In this document: one piece after another, positions 50,764-54,679 of the stretch
How the letters are laid out: the number at the start of each line of letters is the position of its first letter
Numbering within the stretch: position 1 is the first letter of the stretch
Assembly (NCBI RefSeq): GCF_000379025.1
Contig: NZ_KB900618.1
Span: 114,640 to 178,639, forward strand
DNA: 64,000 nt
Direction of reading: 5' to 3'
Origin: Orenia marismortui DSM 5156
GTDB taxonomy: Bacteria; Bacillota; Halanaerobiia; Halobacteroidales; Halobacteroidaceae
Made by a program: the position numbers and the translations under genes
Notes under the pieces: generated by a model
What the model saw: only the letters and a program-made list of their open reading frames with translations
Databases searched by the model: none
What the model was told of the DNA's origin: nothing

Positions 50764-51971
50764 GCTTCATTGTAAAATCAAATTGAACAAAATAAAAATA
50801 GCCATAGGGCACCAAACTGTAATATAATTAAATCACCACAAAGTAACCAATTACAGGAGGGTGCACACTATGACTTACTTAAATGATACACCAAAATCCC
50901 GAAAAAATAAACACTTAAATGCTTATGAACGTGGTCAAATTGCATTATTACATTCCGAAGGAATGAATCCAAATGCTATTGCAAAACGTTTAGGTAGAGC
51001 TTCTAATACGATTAGAAACGAGCTAAAACGTGGTACAGTTTCTCAAATTAAAGCTAATAAAAAGGTTATGGCTTATTATCCTGACACTGGTCAAAGAGTT
51101 TATGAATCTAATCGCAAAAATTGTGGTCCTAAGTTTAAGCTTTTACAATGTGAATACTTTATTGACTATGTTGTGGAACAATTCTACCAAAAAGGACATT
51201 CTCTTGATGCTATATGTGGTGCAGCAAAACTTCATAATAAATTTTCAAAGTCAGAAATGGTGTCTACTAAGACGCTGTATAACTATGTTAACGCTGGATT
51301 ATTGACAATCAAAAACATTGATTTACCCTTAAAGCTTAAACGCTCTTCAAAAACAAATCGTACTAAAAATAATAAAAAGAAGCTTGGTACAAGTATAGAT
51401 CAACGCCCTGAAAGTATTAATAATCGTAGTGAGTTTGGTCACTGGGAAATTGACACTATGATAGGCAAAAAGACTAAAAATGAATCAGTTTTACTTACTA
51501 TGACAGAACGTATGACTCGTAAAGAAATTATTCGTAAAATCCCTGCCAAGACTGCTCAAGCAGTTCAAGATGCTATTTTAAAGCTCGTTAATGAAGCAGG
51601 AGATTGTTTTCCAAAAGTATTTAAAAGCTTCACTTGTGATAATGGCTCTGAGTTTGCTCAAATGTCATTTTTAGAGCAAATTAGTGATACTAAAGTATAC
51701 TTTGCACATCCATATTCATCATGGGAAAGAGGAACTAATGAGCGTCATAATGGTCTTATAAGACGCTTTATCCCTAAAGGTAATAGTCTAAACCAATTCT
51801 CTATTGAATCTATTGCTAGAGTCCAAAACTGGTGCAATACTTTACCAAGAAAAATCTTAGATTACCTAACCCCTGATGAAATATTTGAAGATAAATTAAA
51901 ACAAATTCTTTATGACTAAATAACCAAATTATTACAGTTTGAAAATGTTCAATTTATTATTGCAATTTAAG
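50764..51971 (+). mobile_element. IS30-family insertion sequence type 2, copy B
   Basis: 1208 bp, same ends as copy A (32475-33682). It has no target duplication: the flanks differ. The right half is identical to copy A, while the left half differs at about 40 positions, which suggests recombination between copies instead of simple transposition. Confidence 0.92.
50870..51919 (+). CDS. IS30-family transposase, type 2, copy B
   Basis: 349 residues, intact DDE triad (D195, D257, E291). It differs from copy A only in the N-terminal half (for example CEYFIDYVVEQFYQKG and SSKTNRTKNN) and is identical from about residue 165 onwards. ATG 50870 follows GGAGGG. Confidence 0.95.
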   Translation: MTYLNDTPKSRKNKHLNAYERGQIALLHSEGMNPNAIAKRLGRASNTIRNELKRGTVSQIKANKKVMAYYPDTGQRVYESNRKNCGPKFKLLQCEYFIDYVVEQFYQKGHSLDAICGAAKLHNKFSKSEMVSTKTLYNYVNAGLLTIKNIDLPLKLKRSSKTNRTKNNKKKLGTSIDQRPESINNRSEFGHWEIDTMIGKKTKNESVLLTMTERMTRKEIIRKIPAKTAQAVQDAILKLVNEAGDCFPKVFKSFTCDNGSEFAQMSFLEQISDTKVYFAHPYSSWERGTNERHNGLIRRFIPKGNSLNQFSIESIARVQNWCNTLPRKILDYLTPDEIFEDKLKQILYD

Positions 51972-52981: not shown

Positions 52982-53434
52982 ATGAGTTTTGATATAAATT
53001 CAAAAAATAATTATGATGAAATAATGGATCAGCAATTTAACTTATTACAAGATATGATAAATCTTTCTGACTATGTTATTTATCAAGAATATGAAGATTT
53101 AGAGCTATTAGAAACGGGGATGGATCTTTTAAAGAAGATGATAAAGGTAAATAAACTTAACTATCATTTAGTAGATAACTTTGCAGAAGAAAGAGAAGTT
53201 AAGTTTATCAAAGAACAATATCATTCCTATAGCTTAGATCCTTTAGATAAAATAGGGGAGGAGATAAGGAATCTACAGATTATATTAGAAGATATAAGTG
53301 AAGTATATAATAATTTTGATAGTATTGATGAAGATTTAAAGATAGAAGCAATGAATACAATTGAGACAATTGCTACTTATAATCTCAGAGACTATGAAAA
53401 TACTATTAAGAATACATTTAAAGGTAGTTTATAG
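52982..53434 (+). CDS. Hypothetical acidic helical protein
   Basis: Unrecognised protein of 150 residues, strongly acidic, helical throughout, no signal or membrane segment. It starts at ATG behind ATGGGGTG. Its end overlaps the end of the convergent recombinase gene by six bases, with no terminator between them. It is the last plus-strand gene before the orientation switch. Confidence 0.7.
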   Translation: MSFDINSKNNYDEIMDQQFNLLQDMINLSDYVIYQEYEDLELLETGMDLLKKMIKVNKLNYHLVDNFAEEREVKFIKEQYHSYSLDPLDKIGEEIRNLQIILEDISEVYNNFDSIDEDLKIEAMNTIETIATYNLRDYENTIKNTFKGSL

Positions 53435-54364
53435 CTCAGGTAGCTGATCTACTGCATTCTTACGTTGTTCTTTATCTGTATGGGTATAAATTTGGGTTGT
53501 AGAAAGATTACTATGGCCCAACAGTTCTTGTAGTACTCTTAAGTCTTTAGTTTCTTTATATAATATACTAGCAAAGGTATGGCGCAATTTATGAGGAGTT
53601 ACCTTTTCAGCATTACGAACACCAGCTCTTTTAGCATATTTTTTGACCATTGTTTGAACAGTTCTAACACTGATTCTATTACCACGGTTTGATAGAAAGA
53701 GGGCTTTTTTAGCATCGTGATTACTTGTTTTTATCTTATTTCTATCAGGTAAGTAATTTTTAATTGCCGATATAACTTCCTGATGCAAAGGCACATAACG
53801 TTCTTTATTTCCTTTTCCGTAGAACTTAATAGAGCTATCTGCATAATCTAATTCATCAACGTTTAAATTCACAAGTTCTGAAATTCTTAGACCACAATAT
53901 AAAAACATCTTATTGATAGCTAAATCTCGACTTTGATTTTTAGAATTATAGTTTTTGATCGCATTTAAGTAATTTCTGATATCGTCAGCATTTAAATAAA
54001 TTGGCTCAGATCTTAAATTTGTTTTAGTAGATTCAATAGATAAAGTAGGGTTGTTATTTATAAAGTTACGCTTTACTAAGAAATTGAAGAAAGACCTCAA
54101 GCTATATAACTTACGATTTCTAGTTGCAGCTGAGTTATCATTAATTAAGATAATATCGCTTAGAAATTCAGAGAGATGAAATTGGTTAATTTCTTCGATC
54201 TCTAAACTTTCGATCTCATAGTCAAATTCTTTATTTAGATATCTAGCAAAAAGATCTAGATCTTGATTATATTCTTTAATAGTCAATTCAGAATAACCTC
54301 GTTCGGCTAAGAGATATTTCAAAAAACTTTTTACAGCTTGTTTATACTTTAAATTTTTAATCAA
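53429..54364 (-). CDS. Xer-type tyrosine recombinase
   Basis: Site-specific recombinase of 311 residues, the length of XerC/XerD. An N-terminal SAM-like core-binding domain spans about 5-100. The catalytic domain carries R160 (CGLRISEL), K184 or K187 (GKGNKER), H258 and R261 (TPHKLRHTFAS), H284 (LGHSN) and the nucleophile Y293 (QIYTH), all present. TTG 54364 follows AAGGAGG. A dif-like palindrome lies 152 bp upstream, as difSL lies next to xerS in streptococci, so resolution of chromosome dimers is the likely job. Confidence 0.92.
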   Translation of the reverse strand: MIKNLKYKQAVKSFLKYLLAERGYSELTIKEYNQDLDLFARYLNKEFDYEIESLEIEEINQFHLSEFLSDIILINDNSAATRNRKLYSLRSFFNFLVKRNFINNNPTLSIESTKTNLRSEPIYLNADDIRNYLNAIKNYNSKNQSRDLAINKMFLYCGLRISELVNLNVDELDYADSSIKFYGKGNKERYVPLHQEVISAIKNYLPDRNKIKTSNHDAKKALFLSNRGNRISVRTVQTMVKKYAKRAGVRNAEKVTPHKLRHTFASILYKETKDLRVLQELLGHSNLSTTQIYTHTDKEQRKNAVDQLPEL

Positions 54365-54679
54365 AACAAAAGACCTCCTTAATTAGACTCAAAAATTAGA
54401 CTCAAAAACAACGGTTAATTATTATTTATCTATTTAAATTATAATATCCAGAATAAAATATTGCAAATATAGGTATAATATTATTTAAATTCGGGAATAA
54501 TATTATTTTAACCTCATTATTGCGCAAAATACATATTTTGCGCAATAATATAAAACAATAATACCTTTATAATAATCCCCTCCTTATACACTTTTCTCTT
54601 TACACCTAGCAATATAGACCTCTGATCTTCAAAAAAGATTCTAAACTTGTTCAAAAGCTTTTATTTTGTAATTTTATTC
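54365..54679. other. Region upstream of the recombinase gene
   Basis: Besides the palindrome at 54516 it has a direct repeat ATAATATTATTT (about 54476 and 54498) just left of it. It is otherwise AT-rich without a recognised gene. Confidence 0.4.
54516..54549. other. Candidate dif site (34-bp perfect palindrome)
   Basis: Arms of 16 bp (54516-54531 and 54534-54549) are perfectly complementary around CA. The central 28 bp (54519-54546) split as ATTGCGCAAAA - TACATA - TTTTGCGCAAT, the 11-6-11 layout of Xer recombination sites. There is no T-run after it, unlike a terminator. It lies next to an Xer-type gene and at the gene-orientation switch. Unlike most dif sites it is fully symmetric. Confidence 0.65.

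Follow-up and report, generated by a model that had tools for sequence, protein, structure and literature searches.

We analysed a 64,000-nucleotide stretch of the genome of Orenia marismortui DSM 5156 (contig NZ_KB900618.1, positions 114,640 to 178,639; hereafter the window, to which coordinates refer unless stated otherwise), in which a gene for a Xer-type tyrosine recombinase is preceded by a perfect palindrome (Table 1). The gene starts with TTG behind an AAGGAGG box, and its product retains R160, K184, H258, R261, H284 and Y293, the six catalytic residues, which are also invariant in our alignments A1 and A2. The palindrome lies 152 bp upstream of the start codon, and a preliminary description of the stretch, made from its letters alone, was correct about both this distance and the completeness of the gene. 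It had also described the palindrome exactly as we find it, with a total length of 34 bp, two 16-bp arms (54516-54531 and 54534-54549) perfectly complementary around a CA dinucleotide (54532-54533), the only break in the symmetry, and an inner 28 bp (54519-54546) that divide 11-6-11 into ATTGCGCAAAA, TACATA and TTTTGCGCAAT. This core is non-coding and, with about 28 bp, two 11-bp arms and a 6-bp centre, has the anatomy of a chromosomal dif site.

Table 1. Features at the xer locus of the window and a further recombinase gene of the same genome; genomes are labelled G, contigs C and loci L.
Feature	Position	Strand	Basis or remark
Full palindrome, proposed dif with outer symmetric extension	54516-54549	.	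ATTATTGCGCAAAATA-CA-TATTTTGCGCAATAAT
Putative left recombinase-binding arm, ATTGCGCAAAA	54519-54529	+	layout; varies symmetrically together with the right arm
TACATA, central hexamer where strands are presumably exchanged	54530-54535	.	between the two 11-bp arms
Putative right recombinase-binding arm, TTTTGCGCAAT	54536-54546	-	left-arm sequence read from the opposite strand
xer-type tyrosine recombinase gene, 311 aa, proposed sole dif recombinase	53429-54364	-	R-K-H-R-H-Y present
Replication terminus, from cumulative GC-skew maximum (53598) to palindrome	53598-54549	.	GC skew
Integron-integrase/XerA-like recombinase	G000:C6:231-998 (L004)		at the very end of the contig; similar genes in most genomes of the order

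Uniqueness of the palindrome and its place at the terminus

The window is AT-rich and contains ten longer perfect palindromes, with arms of up to 23 bp and mostly terminator-like, so that symmetry by itself proves nothing. The preliminary description had taken the palindrome for the chromosome dif, a reading that would have been refuted by many genomic copies, by a better-matching dif at another terminus, or by a lack of conservation beside xer in relatives. Across the 3.46 Mb of the genome there is a single occurrence of the 28-mer, even with up to three mismatches allowed, and shuffled versions of the window contain on average 0 matches to it. Searches with known dif sites (from E. coli, B. 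subtilis, Frankia and archaea, and difSL) across 444 kb of the contig gave nothing above background, the best matches agreeing at 18-21 of 28 positions.

The GC skew of the window is positive nearly throughout up to about 54 kb and negative thereafter, a switch that extends beyond the window, with positive skew for 134 kb to the left and negative skew for 309 kb to the right. Within this 444-kb stretch the cumulative skew peaks at contig position 168237 and the palindrome lies at 169158, 0.9 kb away; this maximum is the replication terminus, and the site is thus present in one copy per chromosome at the skew switch, as is a dif. In the two relatives assembled into a single contig (G001 and G007), xer lies at 0.51 of the contig, and the sampled stretches have positive skew across the first half and negative skew across the second: in G001 the maximum (1254888) and the palindrome (1255181) are 0.3 kb apart, and in G007 the maximum is at most 44 bp from the xer gene. 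We also looked for an orienting motif resembling the FtsK orienting polar sequences (KOPS) and name none: many octamers strand-skewed about the site were found (for example GATTTAGA, with counts of 73:6, 64:9 and 76:11 in three genomes) and are explained by the GC skew itself, and the classic E. coli and B. subtilis motifs of this type are too rare for a judgement.

That the palindrome is a transcription terminator or a product of chance is hardly credible, despite the many perfect palindromes of similar or greater length around it. No run of T follows it and no convergent gene end lies beside it; instead it is a single-copy site at the terminus, with arms that co-vary symmetrically across related genomes around a centre of constant length that is not itself palindromic. 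Conservation in relatives was looked for and is present, and we reject the terminator reading on the missing T-run and on the sites described below that are not linked to xer. Taken together, uniqueness, position at the GC-skew switch and recurrence beside the same gene of the layout, rather than of the sequence, are not chance.

The site in related genomes, beside xer and away from it

Of the 12 further genomes of the order, 11 each encode a single orthologous Xer with 67-80% identity and the twelfth (G007) one with 47% identity, and in those 11 an 11-6-11 palindrome lies 50-330 bp upstream of the xer start. The arm sequences vary from genome to genome yet remain complementary (e.g., ATTTCGCAAAA/TTTTGCGAAAT and CCTTCGTTAAA/TTTAACGAAGG), so that the layout beside xer is conserved through compensating changes in both arms. 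A strict arm consensus has, among the matches listed, one match without mismatches per genome in G001-G004, located at xer; looser versions of it match at background level. Two local peculiarities were noted. Contigs C78, C87, C50 and C90 of G004, none of them the terminus contig, carry near copies with one mismatch (TTCGCTAAG n6 TTTAACGAA and others), and in G010 (L013, ~1081-1410) a decayed partial copy of the recombinase lies just upstream of xer, beside an imperfect site in which 9 of 11 arm positions pair.

In a sister group within the same class (families f3, f145 and f146) no palindrome is found beside xer. One of its members, G092, carries a perfect palindrome, ACTTCGTAAAA TTATTA TTTTACGAAGT, 5 kb from xer and 167 bp from the skew maximum. 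With the G092 arms as a search pattern, allowing up to three mismatches, exactly one site was found in each of five out of six further genomes of this group, and the skew maxima, which were fetched only afterwards, lie 133 bp (G380), 162 bp (G508), 1526 bp (G403), 205 bp (G426) and 5478 bp (G488) from it. The xer gene, in the same order, is 50 kb away, on a different contig, 13 kb, 19 kb and 12 kb away. How the central hexamer is oriented with respect to the replichores was judged by eye; it seemed inconsistent (TTATTA in G092 and TAATAA in G508, both on the + strand) and was not used.

These unlinked sites bear on two other explanations. The palindrome could serve as an operator for the control of xer by the recombinase or by another regulator, as its position 50-330 bp upstream of the gene in many genomes would allow; the distance is, however, highly variable, the site lies downstream of xer in G038, and in the five genomes above 12-50 kb separate the two, or they are on different contigs, with the site still at the skew maximum. 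We consider this reading very improbable and reject it as contradicted by the unlinked sites: since the palindrome stays with the terminus where xer is elsewhere, an operator is excluded and the palindrome is almost certainly a dif. A mobile element encoding this recombinase could also be parked at the terminus, with the palindrome as its attachment site, given that Xer-using elements integrate at dif and that similar palindromes occur on viral contigs. Against this, to which we give very little credence, stand the presence of the gene, once per genome, throughout the order at the identities given above, and the position of the site at the terminus also in genomes whose xer lies elsewhere.

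We therefore hold it very likely that the palindrome is the chromosome dif and that the adjacent gene encodes the recombinase acting on it; the corresponding proposal of the preliminary description is borne out by the single copy, the 0.9 kb to the skew maximum and the conserved layout, with the site at the terminus where it is not linked to the gene.

The recombinase lineage and the case for a single enzyme

The window's Xer scores 257 bits on the XerC model (cut-off 335), 238 bits on the XerD model (cut-off 330), about 80 bits or more short of both, and 151 bits on the XerS model NF003462 (cut-off 267). Members of the palindrome-associated clade reach about 214-260 bits on XerC, a model run for the window protein and selected relatives, and 195-250 bits on XerD, ordinary Xers scoring at least 320. 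In our trees the palindrome-bearing Xers, among them those of Clostridium, Proteiniclasticum, Anaerococcus and Tissierellia, form one group, separate from XerC, XerD and XerS, with a support of 89/84 and 91% of bootstrap trees in the tree that includes XerS. The clade also holds a subgroup without palindromes (L257, L259, L260, L263 and L268), sometimes with two copies side by side (G504:C52), whose host genomes (G023, G091, G134 and others) also carry XerD; this subgroup was possibly recruited by mobile elements.

The anatomy of the sites was assessed over 38 of them, with the expected pairing computed from the make-up of each column. Arm positions 4, 8 and 10 pair in 97, 97 and 92% of the sites, against 52, 52 and 40% expected, although many of the 38 were chosen for near-palindromy, so that the symmetry of the 11-bp arms, unlike that of the outer positions, is partly selected. 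Symmetry continues for about 5 bp past the arms, to about 16 bp, and then ends (87, 79, 68, 50 and 47% against 45, 49, 45, 31 and 35% expected). Within the centre, there is no excess of pairing among the inner four bases (45 and 39% observed, 39 and 36% expected), and the 28 distinct central hexamers are all non-palindromic. Such a pattern is expected if one and the same protein binds both half sites, these being equivalent, and if the centre has to retain polarity. The outer symmetry (54514-54518 and 54547-54551 in the window) could reflect extra recombinase contacts or templated correction of quasi-palindromes.

No XerD scores above the curated cut-off in any of the 13 genomes of the order, each of which has one FtsK gamma domain. 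Because the arms are near-identical and co-vary, and because there is neither a XerD above the cut-off nor a universal partner, one protein probably serves both arms. This is the part of the preliminary description, which had a single recombinase possibly binding both arms, that gains from the near-identical arms and the lack of XerD and yet stays provisional, given weaker Xer-like genes in each genome.

The site might instead be acted on by a heteromeric pair, formed by this Xer and another Xer-like protein in the manner of XerC and XerD. Further, weaker Xer-like matches occur throughout the order, one or more per genome, and a XerD-like protein accompanies the clade member in f67 and f85. 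These other genes are of differing kinds (integron-integrase-like, a second Xer confined to one family, fragments), none is common to all 13 genomes, and the only other match in the single-contig genome G007 carries two stops; moreover, near-identical arms need no two specificities, whereas XerCD sites are asymmetric, with 6 of 11 arm pairs in the E. coli and B. subtilis sites. We regard a heteromeric pair as unlikely. The second Xer (L023-L027 in G001-G005) is 31-36% identical and lies, in G001, at 0.26 of the chromosome.

A number of observations count against a single Xer acting on a symmetric dif, and are best seen together. The site of G007 is weak or degenerate, with 9 of 11 pairs; the G092 pattern, at up to three mismatches, found no site in G356, the sixth of the sister-group genomes searched; and no site was detected in 21 kb of Clostridium sp. 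CL-2 (L070). The Xer group includes further members without a detected site, one subgroup of them in the XerD-bearing genomes mentioned above. The weaker Xer-like matches are heterogeneous and present in each genome of the order: the own genome of the window has the integron-integrase-like gene on C6 and Xer fragments on C8, and one of the two families in the order has, in each of its five genomes, the second related Xer, with no palindrome beside it. Finally, the XerD-like protein is found beside the clade member in f85, and nearly so in f67. The case for one enzyme is best in the window's class and in G038, G080 and G204, each with one XerD-model match.

Place at the terminus, uniqueness, conserved layout and lineage are computed results; the mechanism is drawn by analogy from known Xer systems. 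Under the single-Xer reading, dimers that arise when homologous recombination fuses sister chromosomes would be resolved at this site. The FtsK translocase would draw the terminus to the septum, pair the two dif copies and presumably activate the recombinase; two monomers of the single Xer would occupy the near-identical arms of each site; and the resulting tetramer would cleave at the borders of the hexamer and swap strands across it, giving two monomeric chromosomes before cell division. With equivalent arms, it would be the asymmetric centre (CA in the window) or the direction from which FtsK arrives that sets the order in which strands are exchanged, and not differences between the arms, as is reported for XerH/difH.

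Wider distribution and relation to known Xer systems

XerCD is currently described as near universal in bacteria, and the single-recombinase exceptions named are those of streptococci, epsilonproteobacteria, archaea and Legionellales. The same layout accompanies more distant Xers (36-47% identical) in Clostridium hydrogeniformans, C. lacusfryxellense, Proteiniclasticum aestuarii, Anaerococcus ihuae, a metagenome-assembled genome of Tissierellia and genomes of families f30, f46, f62, f67, f85, f98, f99, f156, f167, f172, f176 and f178; several of the named Clostridium, Proteiniclasticum and Anaerococcus loci have a local skew switch at the site. Among the 500-bp regions upstream of xer genes of the clade, 30 of 46 contain a site, compared with 0.2 expected from shuffles and 1 of 64 for other Xer genes, and the same procedure, applied as a positive control to streptococcal xerS loci, recovered difSL directly upstream.

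Previously described single-recombinase systems comprise XerS/difSL and XerH/difH, whose sites adjoin their genes, and XerA in archaea (PMC5357621), to which XerL of Legionellales has been added, where one recombinase was experimentally shown to act on a unique site at the GC-skew inflection with uninterrupted inverted-repeat arms of 10 and 12 bp, and where XerL alone recombined its site in yeast (PMC9765430). As read here, the locus in the window adds to the known single-Xer/dif systems (XerS, XerH, XerA, XerL) a new variant whose arms are nearly identical. With XerL it shares a presumably single recombinase, uninterrupted inverted-repeat arms and a unique site at the skew switch. XerL, set apart here by its published description and not by sequence comparison, is undetectable by homology to XerC, XerD, XerS and XerH and has its tyrosine at Y387, and the dif of L. 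pneumophila is more than 400 kb from xerL (PMC9765430); here a protein of 311 residues is plainly XerC/XerD-like, and dif adjoins xer in most genomes.

The likeness to XerS/difSL lies in the apparently single recombinase, in the site directly upstream of the gene and in the flavour of the arms (TTTCCGAAAA vs. ATTTCGCAAAA). However, difSL has 31 bp, an 11-bp centre and unequal arms (PMC5357621), against a 28-bp core, a 6-bp centre and equal arms here, and XerS, of about 356 residues, forms a separate clade under whose cut-off the window protein falls. XerH/difH of Helicobacter and Campylobacter likewise combines a single recombinase, as supposed here, with a site near the gene and near-symmetric arms, which in our case are identical; XerH is remote in sequence by profile score, reaching 108 bits under profile A1, where E. 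coli XerD reaches 169. In XerH the asymmetry of the arms fixes the order of cleavage, and a symmetrised site still yields asymmetric subunits (PMC5241119); the natural sites described here are already symmetrised. Archaeal XerA, also comparable through its lone recombinase if ours is one, uses a 28-bp 11-6-11 site, that of P. abyssi (sequence from PMC2958812) pairing at 9 of 11 positions, but is reported to be independent of FtsK (PMC5357621), whose gamma domain is present in all genomes of the order here. The dif of XerC/XerD shares the 28-bp 11-6-11 layout at the terminus, and XerC and XerD are the closest curated protein models. The present system differs from it in having, as we infer, one recombinase rather than two, arms identical at 11 of 11 positions where XerCD sites have unequal ones and a conserved arm for XerD (TTATGTTAAAT-like), and a protein in a separate clade that scores under both cut-offs. 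What is particular here is that a site linked to its gene, as for XerS and XerH, is fully symmetric, as for XerL, and goes with an XerC/XerD-like protein that fails both models.

In the literature searched we found no description of this system, though one may exist in literature outside that search; the dif survey of Kono et al., based on XerCD-type models, failed in C. perfringens and C. beijerinckii (PMC3025954). We think it probable that, in a large, undescribed branch of Bacillota with about 20 family labels, made up of the window's class and of genomes of the Clostridium, Proteiniclasticum, Anaerococcus and Tissierellia types, chromosomes are resolved by a separate Xer family that works without a partner at a Cre/loxP-like dif of perfect symmetry, such that direction and order of strand exchange would rest only on a few central bases or on FtsK. 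If this is true, a further Xer family with a symmetric dif would correct the prediction of terminus and dif in Clostridium-like bacteria, making the terminus readable from one short motif. It would also provide a natural chromosomal site with equivalent arms, in which control of strand order by arms, centre or FtsK could be tested through two base pairs.

Viral contigs in IMG/VR (L334-L398) carry exact 9-6-9 palindromes of this type, in 14, 34 and 17 stretches for three versions of the arm, and one control arm of the same composition gave no 9-6-9 palindromes in these contigs. Some of them (L365, L379 and L392) have two copies of the palindrome, and some have recurrent symmetric flanks (caacta..tagttg); such contigs are candidates for Xer-exploiting elements. 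L353 and L367 encode, in addition, a member of the same Xer clade and could be host DNA. In the window itself, a complete gene for an IS30-family transposase (50861-51919) lies about 2.6 kb from the dif site.
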